From Candidatus Igneacidithiobacillus taupoensis (GTDB taxonomy: Bacteria; Pseudomonadota; Gammaproteobacteria; Acidithiobacillales; Acidithiobacillaceae), in the NCBI GenBank assembly GCA_021375695.1, contig JAEPKX010000008.1:14998-58208 (forward strand): a DNA stretch of 43,211 nucleotides, given 5' to 3'. Made by a program: the position numbers and the translations under genes. The notes below the pieces were generated by a model. It saw nothing but the letters and a program-made list of their open reading frames with translations. It had not been told where the DNA came from and ran no database searches. Of the stretch, positions 36,032 to 41,716 are shown in pieces. Within the stretch, counting starts at the first letter, position 1. Each line of letters begins with the position of its first letter.

Positions 36032-36985
36032 ATGGACCTGGATACTACGGAAATTGCATTGTTTTTACCAGTGGAGCGGGCGGGAGAACGGCTCGATAGC
36101 CTGCTTTGCGAGCTACTGGCGGAGTTGAGCCGCAGTCGCATCCAGGAATTGCTGCAAAGTGGGGCCATTACCATTGATGGAGGGTTGGCCCGTCCGAGTC
36201 AGCGGGTGCGTGGGGGGGAGGCCGTACAGGTCCGACTGCCGCCGCGGGAGCCTGGCCACTGGCAAGCGGAGCGGATCCCTTTGCAAATCGTCCATGAAGA
36301 TGAAGAGATTCTGGTCGTCGACAAGCCGGCGGGGATGCTTACCCATCCTGGTGCGGGGCATACGGCAGGAACCCTCGCCAATGGGATTTTGGCCCATTGC
36401 CCCGACAATGCCCAATTGCCGCGTGCTGGCATTGTCCATCGTCTGGATAAAGATACCAGCGGACTCCTGGTAATTGCCAAAACCGAGCATGCCCGGCAGG
36501 ATCTAATGGAGCAACTGGCAGAACGGGCCATGCATCGAGAATATGTGGCCCTGGCTTTGGGGGCCATGACCGGAGGAGGGCGGGTGGAAGCCCCCATCGG
36601 CCGCCATTCCCAGGATCGTCTGCGCATGACCGTGCGCAGCGATGGCCGGCCCGCCCGTACCGATTACCGCCTGCTGGAGCGATTCCCCAGGCATACCCTC
36701 TTGCGACTGCGCCTGGCTACGGGTCGTACCCATCAGATTCGCGTCCACATGCGGCATATTGGTCATCCCTTGGTGGGAGATCCGGTTTATGGTGGACGCC
36801 CGATCGTTCCCCCTGGTCTGGATGAAGCCGGTTTGCAGATTTGGCGTTCCTTCCGGCGGCAAGCCCTGCACGCCTGGCGCCTGGAGCTGGAACATCCCCG
36901 GGATGGCGAAGTCTGTACCTTTGAAAGCCCGCTGCCCGCGGACCTGCAGACCTTATTGACGCTACTGCGCAATGCACAGGACTGA
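36032..36985 (+). CDS. rluD: RluD, 23S rRNA pseudouridine synthase
   Basis: Makes pseudouridines in helix 69 of 23S rRNA. The 317-residue protein has an N-terminal S4 RNA-binding domain (about 18-70), the catalytic Asp139 in GIVHRLDKDTSGLLVIAK, and RTHQIRVHMRHIGHPLVGDPVYGG. The S4 domain and synteny with bamD and pgeF favour RluD over RluC or RluA. It is 28 bases from divergent bamD and overlaps pgeF by 14 bases. Confidence 0.94.
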   Translation: MDLDTTEIALFLPVERAGERLDSLLCELLAELSRSRIQELLQSGAITIDGGLARPSQRVRGGEAVQVRLPPREPGHWQAERIPLQIVHEDEEILVVDKPAGMLTHPGAGHTAGTLANGILAHCPDNAQLPRAGIVHRLDKDTSGLLVIAKTEHARQDLMEQLAERAMHREYVALALGAMTGGGRVEAPIGRHSQDRLRMTVRSDGRPARTDYRLLERFPRHTLLRLRLATGRTHQIRVHMRHIGHPLVGDPVYGGRPIVPPGLDEAGLQIWRSFRRQALHAWRLELEHPRDGEVCTFESPLPADLQTLLTLLRNAQD

Positions 36986-37727
36986 TCCCCTGTTGCTGTT
37001 ACCAGATTGGCCTGGACCCCCTGGGGTCCGGGCCGCCATCACAACCCGACGGGGAGGCTGGAGTCAGGGACCCTATGCTTCTTTCAATTTGGGAGCTCAT
37101 GTGGGGGACGATGTCTTCGCCGTGCAGCAAAATCGGGCACTGTTATCCCGCATTCTGGATCTGCCAGCAGCCCCGCGCTGGCTGCGGCAAGTCCACGGCA
37201 CCAACATTGTGACGATTGGTACGGAGGATCGGGATTGGCAGCCGGCCGACGGTGCCGTCAGCTTTGCGCCGGCCGTGGTGCTGGCGGTGCTCAGCGCCGA
37301 TTGTTTGCCTGTCCTCGCCGTTTCCGCCGACGGTCAGCGTCTGGGTGCCTTTCATGCCGGTTGGCGGGGGCTTGCGGCAGGAATTCTCGAACAGGGGATC
37401 GCGGCCCTGGGCGTTGCAGCCGAACAGATTCTGGTATACTTGGGGCCTGCCATTGGCCCTGATGCCTTTGTTGTTGGGGGCGAGGTGCGGGCATGCTTTC
37501 TGGCCGCCGATCCCGATGCCTCATGGGCTTTTCGTCCGGGTTACGGTGATCGCTATTATGCGGACCTCTATGCCTTGGCCCGGATGCGTCTGGCCCGTCT
37601 GGGGGTGACCCGGATTTATGGTGGTAACTATTGTACGGTACGAGATGAATCCCTGTTTTTCTCCCACCGCCGCGACGGGGTGTGTGGACGGATGGCCAGC
37701 TTGATCTGGCGGGAGGCAACATCATGA
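36972..37727 (+). CDS. pgeF: PgeF/YfiH, peptidoglycan editing factor (laccase-domain protein)
   Basis: A 251-residue cytoplasmic protein of the DUF152 family. In E. coli it removes wrongly added L-Ser from UDP-MurNAc. The metal/catalytic residues are H75 (RQVHGTNIV), C111 (LSADCLPVL) and H128 (AFHAGWRGLA). It overlaps rluD by 14 bases and mtnD by 4. Some relatives are annotated as polyphenol oxidase or purine nucleoside phosphorylase; the enzyme activity is uncertain for any given member. Confidence 0.92.
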   Translation: MHRTDPLLLLPDWPGPPGVRAAITTRRGGWSQGPYASFNLGAHVGDDVFAVQQNRALLSRILDLPAAPRWLRQVHGTNIVTIGTEDRDWQPADGAVSFAPAVVLAVLSADCLPVLAVSADGQRLGAFHAGWRGLAAGILEQGIAALGVAAEQILVYLGPAIGPDAFVVGGEVRACFLAADPDASWAFRPGYGDRYYADLYALARMRLARLGVTRIYGGNYCTVRDESLFFSHRRDGVCGRMASLIWREATS

Positions 37728-38269
37728 AGGAATGGCGCTTTGGAGATGAGGGGGCCCAGGGCACGTCGGCCAGGGAGCTACAACAGTGGCTGGCTCCCTT
37801 GGGGGTGACCCTGCGTGCATACCCGGTAGCAGCTGCCGCCCGCCCATGGTTGACACCGGCGGTGCTGGATGCAGCAGGGCAAGCGGCGCTACTGGTCGCA
37901 TTGGACGAGGTTTTTCAGCACCTCAAGGCAGAGCGAGGCTATGCGGATCGTGATCTGGTGGTGCTCTATCCCGAGCATCCGCAACTCGCTGCCTTGGACG
38001 AGCGTTTCGCCCCCATCCACATCCACGAGGACGAAGAGGTGCGCTATGTGGTGGATGGCGAGGGGATCTTTGGTTTTGTGCTCCCCGATGGCCGACAGCT
38101 GGAGGTTACGGTCAACGCTGGGGATTATCTCCATATCCCCGCCCAGGTAGAACACTGGTTTCGCCTGACGGCGTGCAAGCGCATCAAGGCGGTGCGCTAT
38201 TTCAGCGCCCAAGGAGGCTGGACGCCCATCTACAGTCAGCGATCCCGCCAGCGTTTCCCGATCCAATGA
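37724..38269 (+). CDS. mtnD: MtnD, acireductone dioxygenase
   Basis: Oxidises acireductone, giving with Fe2+ the keto-acid precursor of methionine plus formate. The 181-residue cupin has the metal motif HxHxxxE at H99, H101, E105 (APIHIHEDEEVRYVV) and H144 in QVEHWF. The start at ATG 37724 sits in the pgeF stop (ATGA), and the stop overlaps mtnW the same way. The next three genes supply the steps leading to its substrate. Confidence 0.93.
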   Translation: MKEWRFGDEGAQGTSARELQQWLAPLGVTLRAYPVAAAARPWLTPAVLDAAGQAALLVALDEVFQHLKAERGYADRDLVVLYPEHPQLAALDERFAPIHIHEDEEVRYVVDGEGIFGFVLPDGRQLEVTVNAGDYLHIPAQVEHWFRLTACKRIKAVRYFSAQGGWTPIYSQRSRQRFPIQ

Positions 38270-39441
38270 AGGCGGTCATTGAGGTCGATTATCTTTTTCC
38301 GGCCGGAAGTTCCCCAGAACAACAAGCCGAGGCCCTGGCCATTGGGCAGACGGCGGGAACCTGGGATGCCCGATTTATCCACCGGGAAGCTGCCTTGCGG
38401 GAGCACCTGGGCGAGATTCGTGCCCTGGAAATCCTCCCCGATGGGCAGAGTGTAGCCCGCATCGCCTTTCCCCTGGCCAATGTAGACGGTGGCATGGGTA
38501 GCCTCCTCACCATGATCTTTGGCAAGTATTCCCTGGGTGGTACGGCCAAGATTCTGGATCTTCGCCTGCCCGCTGATTATGGTCTGCAGCCGCGCTTTGG
38601 GATGGAAGGTATCCGCCAGCAGCTTGGCGTATTCCGGCGGCCATTGGTCATGGCGATTTTCAAGCCTGCTTTGGGTCTTTCTGCCACAGATCATGCCGAA
38701 ATCCTGGCGGAAGTCGCCTGGGCTGGACTGGACATCATCAAGGACGACGAAATTCTCCCCAATTTGCCCAAGGCTCCCACCCTGGAACGTTGGCGGGCCT
38801 GTGCCCCGATCCTCGAAGCCCGGCGAGACCGGCTGGGTCGGGATCTCCTGTACGCGGTCAACCTTTCGGGCAATGCCGCGCAAGTACAAGACCTGGCGCG
38901 CCGGCTCGTAGCCGAGGGGGCCAATGCCTTACTGCTCAATGTTTTTGCCTACGGTCCTGCGGTGCTGGAGGCCCTGGCCCAGGATCCGGAAATCAATGTC
39001 CCGATATTTGCCCATCCAGCCCTGGCCGGGGCTTTTTCGGCGGCACCTGCCCATGGCTTGAGCTACCGGGTAACCCTCGGCCGATTGCTGGCCCATGCCG
39101 GTGCCGATGCGGTTCTTTATCCAGCCCATTATGGAAGTTTACCCTTTCCTGCTGCGGAGGAGTTTGCCATTCGAGATATTCTCCGCCAACGAGGCTTGGC
39201 CTGTGTGCCCTCGGCTGGGGTGCATCCCGGGATCCTGCCCGCCATCATGGAGGATTATGGAAGCGAGGTCATCCTAAACGCTGGTACCGGGATCATGGAT
39301 CACCCCCAGGGTCCAGCCAGCGGGGTGCGGGCTTTTTTTGAGGCCTGGGAGCGCTATGGGGCGCAGGAGAGTTTTGCGCTTTCGTCCCTGCCTGCAGGCC
39401 CACTGCGCGCAGCAATGGAAAAATGGGGACCCCATGGCTGA
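38266..39441 (+). CDS. mtnW: MtnW, RuBisCO-like protein (2,3-diketo-5-methylthiopentyl-1-phosphate enolase)
   Basis: A 391-residue form IV RuBisCO homologue. K133 (FKPALGLS) and the metal/carbamate motif K159-D160-D161-E162 (LDIIKDDEI) are kept. The CO2/RuBP loop-6 Lys motif of true RuBisCO is replaced by YPAHYGSLPF, and the phosphate-loop region reads NAGTGIMDHPQGPASG. K87 in IFGKYSL may be the enolisation base of MtnW, by alignment from memory. The mtnD, mtnX and mtnB neighbours fix the role as the enolase of methionine salvage. ATG 38266 overlaps mtnD by 4 bases; the stop overlaps mtnX by 8. Confidence 0.93.
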   Translation: MKAVIEVDYLFPAGSSPEQQAEALAIGQTAGTWDARFIHREAALREHLGEIRALEILPDGQSVARIAFPLANVDGGMGSLLTMIFGKYSLGGTAKILDLRLPADYGLQPRFGMEGIRQQLGVFRRPLVMAIFKPALGLSATDHAEILAEVAWAGLDIIKDDEILPNLPKAPTLERWRACAPILEARRDRLGRDLLYAVNLSGNAAQVQDLARRLVAEGANALLLNVFAYGPAVLEALAQDPEINVPIFAHPALAGAFSAAPAHGLSYRVTLGRLLAHAGADAVLYPAHYGSLPFPAAEEFAIRDILRQRGLACVPSAGVHPGILPAIMEDYGSEVILNAGTGIMDHPQGPASGVRAFFEAWERYGAQESFALSSLPAGPLRAAMEKWGPHG

Positions 39442-40066
39442 TCGACTCATTTTTTGCGATTTTGATGGCACCATCCTGGTGGAGGAAATCTTCCGGGACT
39501 TGCTCACGCACTTTGCCCCCGAGCCGGCTGCCCGAATCCTGCCGGAGATCCTGGCCTTGCGGGTGAGTTTGCGGGAGGGCCTGACGGCGATCCTTGGCAC
39601 CATCCCTTCGCACCGCTGGCCAGAGATGGAGGCCTTTGTTCTGGAAAACAGCCACTTGCGGGCGGGTTTTCCGGAATTCCTGGAGGCCCTCCCCAGGCTT
39701 GGCTGGGAGCTGCTGGTGGTGACCGGGGGGTTTACTTCCATGGCGGAGCTGGTGCTGCGGCCCTTGCGTAGCCAAATCCTCGCTATCCATGGCCTCGAGG
39801 TGGATCTTGGCCAACCCTTTTTGCGCGTCCATTCTTCCTGGGAGGATCAGGAGGAGCTGGTGGCCAAAAAACGAGTTTACGACCACTATGCACCCAGGGA
39901 AGCCCTTTGCATTGGTGATTCCGTCACGGATTTGCGGCTGGCCCGCCAATGCCCCAAGGTCTTTGCTCGCAATGGCCTGATCGGATATCTGGAGCGGGAG
40001 CGACTTCCCTTTACCCCCTTTGTGGATTTTTGGGACCTATTGCGTGCTTTGGAGGCACCATCATGA
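39434..40066 (+). CDS. mtnX: MtnX-like HAD phosphatase (2-hydroxy-3-keto-5-methylthiopentenyl-1-phosphate phosphatase)
   Basis: A 210-residue HAD-family phosphatase, with D9 and D11 in IFCDFDGTILVEE, Thr in LLVVTGGFTSMAE and the metal-binding CIGDSVTDLRLA. The start ATG 39434 lies inside mtnW; the family N-terminus begins there. In the Bacillus-type pathway MtnX dephosphorylates the enol product of MtnW to acireductone. The class alone is broad (SerB-like); the specific role is inferred from the operon. Confidence 0.88.
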   Translation: MADRLIFCDFDGTILVEEIFRDLLTHFAPEPAARILPEILALRVSLREGLTAILGTIPSHRWPEMEAFVLENSHLRAGFPEFLEALPRLGWELLVVTGGFTSMAELVLRPLRSQILAIHGLEVDLGQPFLRVHSSWEDQEELVAKKRVYDHYAPREALCIGDSVTDLRLARQCPKVFARNGLIGYLERERLPFTPFVDFWDLLRALEAPS

Positions 40067-40686
40067 AAGATCTGCGCTCGGCCTTGGCAGCAGCGGCTCG
40101 GGATTTCTATGCACGGGGATGGATGTTGGGAACGGCAGGCAACCTCTCGGCCCGGCGCGATGCCGTAAGTTTTTGGATAACCGCCAGTGGTCGCCCCAAA
40201 GACGCCCTTACTCCCGAAGATTTTGTAGCCGTAGATCTGGACGGACAGCTTTTGGAGTCGGGACAGGAGCGACGTCCCTCGGCCGAAACCAGTATCCATA
40301 GGGTCATCTACCGACATTTCCCCAGTGCCCAGGTGATTTTCCATGTCCATTCGGTGGAGGCCAATCTTTGCGGACATTTTGCCAGGGATGGACGTCTGCG
40401 CCTGCCCCCGTTGGAAATGCTCAAGGGATTGGGTATTGCGGAAGTCGATCCCCAGATCGATCTCCCAGTCTTTCGCAATCATCTGCAGGTGGAGCAGATT
40501 GCCGAAGACATGAATGCAAGTTTCCGTCAAAATCCACCGCGTGTGCCTGGGGCACTCATTCACCTCCATGGGATGACGGCCTGGGGGCCTGGGCTGACCG
40601 AGGCCCGACACCATCTGGAGCTCTTTGAGTTTTGTTTTCGGTATCTATCGATGGCCCGATTGTTGGGTCTTGGAGGAGAGTCATGA
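40063..40686 (+). CDS. mtnB: MtnB, methylthioribulose-1-phosphate dehydratase
   Basis: A class II aldolase-fold zinc enzyme of 207 residues that dehydrates MTRu-1-P to the diketone substrate of MtnW. The zinc histidines are H94 and H96 (VIFHVHSVEAN) with a third in LIHLHGMTAWG. The conserved Glu lies in SAETSIHRVIY. The MtnB-specific opening GTAGNLSAR is present. Placement with mtnD, W and X separates it from fuculose-phosphate aldolase. Overlaps both neighbours by 4 bases. Confidence 0.93.
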   Translation: MKDLRSALAAAARDFYARGWMLGTAGNLSARRDAVSFWITASGRPKDALTPEDFVAVDLDGQLLESGQERRPSAETSIHRVIYRHFPSAQVIFHVHSVEANLCGHFARDGRLRLPPLEMLKGLGIAEVDPQIDLPVFRNHLQVEQIAEDMNASFRQNPPRVPGALIHLHGMTAWGPGLTEARHHLELFEFCFRYLSMARLLGLGGES

Positions 40687-41204
40687 GTCAAGCGTTGCTG
40701 ACGGTCATTGGGGAAGATCGCCCCGGAATCGTGGCGGCCGTAACCCAGGCCCTGTATGCCGCCGATTGCGCTATTGGCGATGCTTCGATGATGCGTTTGG
40801 GGGGGTACTTCACCATTATGCAGGTCATTGAGTACCAACGTGATTTTGGTGCCGTAGAAACAGCCCTGGATCCGGCGGTAAAGCGGCTGAACCTGCGTGT
40901 CCATCTGGATCCCATTCCGAGCCTTCCCCGCCAGGAGGATGTTGCCAATGTACGCGTCACCGTCTATGGCGCGGATCATCCAGGGATCGTGGCCAGTGTA
41001 ACCGATGCCCTGGCCCGGATTGGTTTCAACATCATTGATCTGGAAAGCGAGCGCTCCGGTAACCCAGAGCGACCTATTTATGTCATGGTCATCCAAGGCT
41101 CGGCGCCTGGAGGTACGAAAGCTGTCGCCGATGTTCTGGAACCCCTCAAGATCAGCCAGGGCATCGAAATCACGGTGCATCCAGTGGATACGGTGCTGCT
41201 CTGA
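40683..41204 (+). CDS. Double ACT-domain protein, GcvR-like
   Basis: A 173-residue protein made of two ACT domains (about 5-85 and 92-170). Each opens with the typical DRPGIVAAVTQAL or DHPGIVASVTDALARIGFNI ligand-binding turn. ACT pairs of this GcvR/YpiR type bind amino acids and act as regulators without a DNA-binding domain. The ligand here is unknown; methionine or glycine are possible guesses from the family and context. It overlaps mtnB by 4 bases and def by 1 base. Confidence 0.87.
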   Translation: MSQALLTVIGEDRPGIVAAVTQALYAADCAIGDASMMRLGGYFTIMQVIEYQRDFGAVETALDPAVKRLNLRVHLDPIPSLPRQEDVANVRVTVYGADHPGIVASVTDALARIGFNIIDLESERSGNPERPIYVMVIQGSAPGGTKAVADVLEPLKISQGIEITVHPVDTVLL

Positions 41205-41716
41205 TGGCTGTGCTACCCATCCTTACCTACCCCGATCCCCGTTTGCACCGCAAGGCCGAACCGGTGCAGGAGTTCGATGGAGAATTGCGCCAGTTTGTGA
41301 CCGATTTGACCGAGACCATGTATGCAGGCCCCGGCGGGGTAGGTATTGCCGCCCCGCAAGTGGACCGCTTGCAACGGATTGTGCTGGTGGATGTCCGTCC
41401 CAAGCTTGGTGATGACTGTCATGGTTTGATGATTCTCATCAATCCCGAATTAGTGGCTTGGGAGGGAATGGCGGTGGGACGGGAGGGTTGTATGTCGGTA
41501 CCCGATTTTACGGGCAATGTCATTCGTGCCGAGCGAATCCAGGTCCGGGCCCAGGACGGGGAAGGGCGGGATCGCTTTTACGAGTGCCAGGGCTTCGAGG
41601 CCCGGGCCGTTCAGCACGAGATGGACCACCTCGACGGTCTATTATTTTTGGATCGCCTGGTGTCCCGCAAGACCGATCTTTTTCGTCGTAAACAGTATCA
41701 GCCCAAGAAAAAATAA
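41204..41716 (+). CDS. def: Def, peptide deformylase
   Basis: Removes the formyl group from the N-terminal Met of new proteins, a Fe2+ enzyme. Motif I is GVGIAAPQV (45-53), motif II is EGCMSVP with metal Cys96, and motif III is QHEMDHLDG with H138 and H142. The 170-residue length is normal for the type I enzyme. It overlaps the ACT gene by one base (TGATG). def is more often next to fmt; here it ends a methionine salvage run. Confidence 0.95.
   Translation: MAVLPILTYPDPRLHRKAEPVQEFDGELRQFVTDLTETMYAGPGGVGIAAPQVDRLQRIVLVDVRPKLGDDCHGLMILINPELVAWEGMAVGREGCMSVPDFTGNVIRAERIQVRAQDGEGRDRFYECQGFEARAVQHEMDHLDGLLFLDRLVSRKTDLFRRKQYQPKKK

Follow-up and report, generated by a model that had tools for sequence, protein, structure and literature searches.

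Separate proteins for the enolase and phosphatase steps of methionine salvage, a RuBisCO-like enolase (MtnW) and a HAD phosphatase (MtnX), are found together with MtnB and MtnD in the Bacillus subtilis/Geobacillus route. It has been reported that the Microcystis gene rbcLIV/mtnW is a gene for 2,3-diketo-5-methylthiopentyl-1-phosphate enolase (PMC2442094), and a route that begins with deamination of methylthioadenosine (MTA) has been described in Pseudomonas aeruginosa (PMC6302742). A form IV RuBisCO of Acidithiobacillus ferrooxidans, AFE0435, has been on record since 2008 with only a suggested role in stress (PMC2621215). Here we analyzed a stretch of 43,211 nucleotides from Candidatus Igneacidithiobacillus taupoensis (contig JAEPKX010000008.1, positions 14,998 to 58,208; the whole stretch is called the window), in which the genes mtnD-mtnW-mtnX-mtnB run into a gene for a tandem ACT-domain protein and a second peptide deformylase gene, def2. 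We concluded that mtnDWXB and ACT-def2 are two independent modules joined at this locus, and it is highly likely that the first serves methionine salvage via methylthioinosine and that the second is a separate pair. AFE0435, from a member of the same order, is very likely the orthologue of the window MtnW; the salvage operon described here differs from the stress role suggested for it.

Two independent modules in one gene string

The source genome (1.73 Mb, 98% complete) belongs to an Igneacidithiobacillus-like member of the Acidithiobacillales. Eight genes on its plus strand form a head-to-tail, overlapping string, rluD-pgeF-mtnD-mtnW-mtnX-mtnB-ACT-def, and the open reading frames from mtnD to def lie at 37724-41716 as the initial annotation had placed them (Table 1). 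Successive genes from mtnD to def overlap by 4, 8, 4, 4, and 1 bases, each gene beginning before the preceding one has ended; pgeF and mtnD likewise share 4 bases, and the end of rluD extends into pgeF. We infer that the string is co-transcribed. A consensus scan for promoter-like and terminator-like sites stayed at chance level (2 found vs 2.3 expected, and 8 vs 6.6, respectively). The same order was observed in all 20 Acidithiobacillales relatives read, bar two exceptions in a sister family: genome G029, in which mtnX is absent between mtnW and mtnB, and genome G030, in which several kb separate pgeF from mtnD. Since the order is kept in all 20 relatives, these two exceptions aside, it is far from chance, and the mtnDWXB salvage operon is universal or nearly so in the Acidithiobacillales.

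The two modules were then compared outside the order. Among 299 genomes drawn from the phylum, 132 gave a match to the window ACT protein, GcvR-like matches included, and 71 ACT loci at E <= 7.8e-15 (window excluded; the score split was set after seeing the matches) were read. A deformylase gene lies directly downstream on the same strand at 70 out of 71 of these loci in other Pseudomonadota, no mtn genes occur in the stretches read around the 71, and the other neighbours of ACT-def vary from family to family. At the weaker, mostly GcvR-like ACT loci a def gene is adjacent in 1 out of 18. Acireductone dioxygenase is absent from 17 of the 20 ACT-def genomes tested outside the Acidithiobacillales. 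Conversely, the loci read in Nitrospirota, Acidiferrobacter, and several cyanobacteria have mtnD-mtnW-(mtnX)-mtnB with no adjoining ACT-def. One Ectothiorhodospiraceae metagenome-assembled genome (MAG) carries the mtn and ACT-def modules on different contigs; mtnD-mtnW-mtnB, an ACT gene directly adjacent to def, and a distinct GcvR-like protein are each encoded at a location of their own. Because the pair lacks mtn genes elsewhere and mtn lacks ACT-def in other phyla, the ACT protein belongs with def2 and not with salvage, and the joining of ACT-def2 to the mtn operon is a lineage-specific arrangement. The tandem-ACT and second deformylase gene pair (40683-41716 in the window; loci L140-L210 and L257) is conserved across many Pseudomonadota families.

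Two other explanations of the string were considered. ACT-def2 and mtn could be mere neighbours in a housekeeping run, in which the overlaps do no more than couple translation and nothing ties the ACT protein to Def2 in function. The genes upstream are unrelated housekeeping genes and those around ACT-def differ among lineages, which speaks for such a run, but the persistence of the pair over many families despite changing surroundings is hard to explain without a functional link; we regard this explanation as a serious possibility that falls somewhat short of probable. It is unlikely that the genes act together as one unit, with the ACT protein sensing methionine or S-adenosylmethionine-derived compounds and def present because methionine and formyl groups are provided by salvage and acireductone dioxygenase. 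The genes do overlap, their joined order is fully conserved in the Acidithiobacillales, and a shared regulatory benefit within that order is possible. Against this stand the ACT-def loci without mtn elsewhere (70 out of 71), the 17 out of 20 genomes without acireductone dioxygenase, the mtn clusters of other phyla without ACT-def, and the genome that holds both modules unlinked. On the first three of these observations the ACT protein was rejected as a part of salvage, and two proposals of the initial annotation are unsupported: that the ACT protein is a salvage sensor for methionine or a derivative of S-adenosylmethionine, and that def is tied to salvage through formate.

Table 1. Genes of the overlapping string in the window
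Gene and product	Position	Strand	Basis and remarks
rluD, 23S rRNA pseudouridine synthase	36032-36985	+	NCBIfam PRK11180 360 bits, above cut-off; upstream member, outside salvage
pgeF, peptidoglycan editing factor (YfiH family)	36972-37727	+	TIGR00726 above cut-off; Pfam Cu-oxidase_4
mtnD, acireductone dioxygenase, 181 aa	37724-38269	+	Pfam ARD 71 bits (cut-off 27)
mtnW, RuBisCO-like protein	38266-39441	+	Solved match 2zvi, invariant residues, tree
mtnX, HAD phosphatase of MtnX type, 210 aa	39434-40066	+	Best models PRK09552 and TIGR03333; Pfam HAD
mtnB, methylthioribulose-1-phosphate dehydratase, 207 aa	40063-40686	+	TIGR03328 199 bits (cut-off 137)
Tandem ACT-domain protein, 173 aa, deformylase-linked type	40683-41204	+	Pfam ACT_6 and ACT
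def2, second peptide deformylase, 170 aa	41204-41716	+	TIGR00079 above cut-off; motifs

The ACT protein and the second deformylase

Def2 contains the motifs GVGIAAPQ, EGCMS, and QHEMDHLDG, corresponding to the peptide deformylase motifs GxGxAAxQ, EGCxS, and HExDH. Since all of them are kept, activity of Def2 as a second deformylase is probable. The other deformylase gene of the source genome, def1, is located on contig C28 and is followed by fmt. In a family search of 20 genomes, 18 contain two deformylase copies, and the two with a single copy are drafts (76% and 93% complete). When 42 deformylases were placed in a tree, the ACT-linked def2 group split from the others, including the fmt-linked def1, with support of 100/99. 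Def2 reads GPGGVGIAAPQ where def1 reads APGIGLAAPQ, with one extra residue ahead of motif I.

The ACT protein exceeds the PRK00194 cut-off by one bit. Its AlphaFold model (predicted local distance difference test score 89.6) has two ACT domains, and the fold resembles 2nyi and the GcvR-like 1u8s (TM-score to 1u8s 0.75-0.77), with single-domain matches to the formyltetrahydrofolate deformylase PurU. The protein thus shares ACT_6-type domains with GcvR and PurU and a tandem ACT fold with GcvR; it differs from GcvR in its low identity (19% to 1u8s), in scoring 44 bits vs a curated GcvR cut-off of 267, and in having a def gene next to it, which 17 out of 18 of the weaker, mostly GcvR-like loci read do not. 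The tandem-ACT protein most likely has a small amino acid as its ligand. The E. coli enzyme PurU responds to both methionine and glycine, which are therefore candidate ligands, by analogy with PurU and GcvR. Binding of such a ligand might in turn modulate the activity or the amount of Def2. Gene pairing and fold are consistent with this step, which is the weakest in the scheme and which we put forward tentatively.

MtnW and the salvage pathway

When the window MtnW was compared with proteins of solved structure, the best match was the enolase 2zvi (E 1.5e-81), followed by other proteins of the MtnW group; RuBisCO-like proteins outside that group match at about 1e-33 or weaker, and the scores are 278 bits to 2zvi vs 93 bits to 3qfw (non-MtnW RuBisCO-like). 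Residues K133, K159, D161, E162, H250, S316, and G340 are invariant across an alignment of 13 members of the order and three solved MtnW-group proteins. The alignment shows that the catalytic and metal-site residues of the solved proteins are present in the window MtnW, with the lysine, KDDE, histidine, and phosphate-loop residues all kept. The phosphate loop itself reads NAGTGIMDHP, compared with NAGGGIHGHP in Bacilli. Of the 31 genomes of the order searched, 28 encode a full-length MtnW (66-100% identity) and 2 more carry a contig-end fragment; the nearest named relative is that of Candidatus Igneacidithiobacillus taiwanensis (79% identity).

A tree with 43 rows places the window MtnW in a 27-row clade (support 98/100) of Acidithiobacillales, cyanobacteria, Nitrospirota (Leptospirillum), and Acidiferrobacter. 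Bacilli MtnW form the neighbouring group, the MtnW side has support of 93/86, and the remaining RuBisCO and RuBisCO-like proteins are placed outside it; the tree includes no deep-Ykr reference, but 3qfw scores far lower. Placement in another RuBisCO-like clade is ruled out by the solved-structure scores and the tree, in which the protein groups with Bacilli MtnW apart from other RuBisCO-like proteins. The "Bacillus type" of the initial annotation is correct for the split MtnW/MtnX route and not for the MtnW protein, which sits in the Acidithiobacillales-cyanobacteria-Nitrospirota clade. Branching within the 27-row clade is poorly resolved. The route resembles that of Bacillus and Geobacillus in that the RuBisCO-like enolase and the HAD phosphatase are two proteins, accompanied by MtnB and MtnD, and in the kept active-site residues, and differs in the MtnW sequence (about 39-40% identity), the mtnD-first order, the probable entry of MTA via methylthioinosine, and scores under the curated model cut-offs. 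Cyanobacterial MtnW is closer, with identities of about 56-66% among the proteins found, and some cyanobacteria have the order mtnD-mtnW-mtnX-mtnB, but ACT-def does not adjoin mtnW in the cyanobacterial loci read. The source genome also encodes a RuBisCO on a separate contig, assigned to form I from its tree position. Locus L116, on a contig labelled as a Klebsiella pneumoniae MAG, holds mtnD-mtnW-mtnB of the same clade as the window MtnW; the label is probably a misassignment.

The best models for MtnX are PRK09552 (E 4e-30) and TIGR03333 (E 5e-26), and among solved structures MtnD best matches the acireductone dioxygenase 4qgl (E 3.4e-18). The G029 genome is 100% complete, and no recognisable mtnX was found in its mtn cluster (L053, contig C2, mtnW 10978 and mtnB 11003) or elsewhere. 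Clusters without mtnX were also observed in Acidiferrobacter/Ectothiorhodospiraceae (loci L120, L122, L125-L130, L132, and L133). Where mtnX is absent, another phosphatase must therefore act at the MtnX step.

The rest of the pathway was searched for in the source genome. One mtnA is present (contig C29; 448 bits vs a cut-off of 279), and a phosphorylase on contig C57 (L005) scores 361 bits on the methylthioinosine phosphorylase model (cut-off 223) and 289 bits on the MTA phosphorylase model (cut-off 275). Its best solved match is the methylthioinosine phosphorylase 3ozb (E 2e-86), which we take to be the P. aeruginosa enzyme, and the VVNPAAGK stretch is common to both. The phosphorylase gene adjoins the hypoxanthine-guanine phosphoribosyltransferase gene hpt, which fits the release of hypoxanthine. 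A hydrolase resembling MTA deaminases (contig C26, L037) scores 592 bits vs a cut-off of 540 on an MtaD-type model; its best solved matches, 4dyk and 4gbd, are nearly equal (both E about 1e-126), the latter being presumably the P. aeruginosa MTA deaminase, and its gene adjoins ubiG and a phosphoglycolate-phosphatase-like gene. Because of the methylthioinosine phosphorylase- and MtaD-type genes, their solved matches, and the hpt neighbour, MTA most likely enters salvage via methylthioinosine. A second protein of the purine nucleoside phosphorylase family (contig C19) was rejected as an MTA nucleosidase, being HpnG-like (hopanoid-associated phosphorylase). Genes of the Pseudomonas type for methylthioinosine phosphorylase and MTA deaminase are thus present in an autotrophic acidophile. 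P. aeruginosa uses MtnC, whereas the downstream steps in the source genome would use MtnW and MtnX.

By homology, mtnA, the MTA/methylthioinosine phosphorylase, mtnB, the enolase, the phosphatase, and mtnD are all in one genome, and the idea of a pathway broken by the lack of mtnA or a phosphorylase was rejected. The MtnW tree, mtnA, and the phosphorylase together bear out the MtnW/MtnX-type salvage operon proposed in the initial annotation, and two of the three conditions set there for refuting it fail. In the predicted route, MTA would be deaminated to methylthioinosine by MtaD, and phosphorolysis would then yield methylthioribose-1-phosphate and hypoxanthine. After isomerisation by MtnA, module 1 would carry out the late, oxygen-dependent steps by the split route: dehydration by MtnB, enolisation by MtnW, dephosphorylation by MtnX, and cleavage by MtnD to ketomethylthiobutyrate and formate. 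A transaminase would convert ketomethylthiobutyrate to methionine.

Several points weigh against the reading as salvage operon plus separate ACT-def2 pair. The window MtnW lies under the curated cut-offs (295 bits vs 513.6 for TIGR03332, 346 vs 409 for PRK09549), and so does MtnX (92 bits vs 303.2 for the curated cut-off; both of its best models are under cut-off). In the lone exception among the 71 ACT loci (genome G065), ACT and the second def lie on the same contig with about 35 kb between them, and paired genes can stay together for expression reasons alone. The MtnW model is still the best-scoring model for the window protein, and TIGR03332 and PRK09549 appear tuned to Bacilli; because of the scores under these equivalog cut-offs we call the protein MtnW-type rather than a certified MtnW member. 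The low equivalog score, and the stress response mentioned as a personal communication in the 2008 A. ferrooxidans genome paper (PMC2621215), would also suit a non-salvage role in stress or as an isomerase (isoprenoid shunt), but this is very unlikely for a protein that resembles MtnW much more closely than it does the other RuBisCO-like proteins, groups with Bacilli MtnW, and is flanked by mtnD, mtnX, and mtnB in a genome with mtnA and a methylthioinosine phosphorylase.

Implications for acidophiles and for deformylation

The salvage operon itself is ordinary: all 20 relatives read have it, and form IV RuBisCO was known in A. ferrooxidans. Its identification assigns form IV RuBisCO in acidophilic sulfur and iron oxidisers to a definite place in metabolism, methionine salvage via methylthioinosine, where a vague role in stress had been suggested, and documents the MtnW/MtnX route for Pseudomonadota, with near kin in cyanobacteria and Nitrospirota. 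The one part that may be undescribed is the ACT-def2 pair; a limited literature search on deformylases with ACT domains returned nothing on point, which is not proof of novelty. Module 2 occurs in many Pseudomonadota that lack salvage genes and stands behind mtnB in the Acidithiobacillales. It is conceivable, at a confidence below even, that ACT and Def2 make up an undescribed regulated deformylase system of several Pseudomonadota lineages, in which a ligand sensor would tune Def2 to amino-acid or one-carbon status; if so, and with the same reserve, the system would have been placed inside the methionine salvage operon in the Acidithiobacillales. The ACT-def2 pair is the part most worth specialist attention, as it hints at control of N-terminal deformylation, which is normally viewed as constitutive housekeeping.

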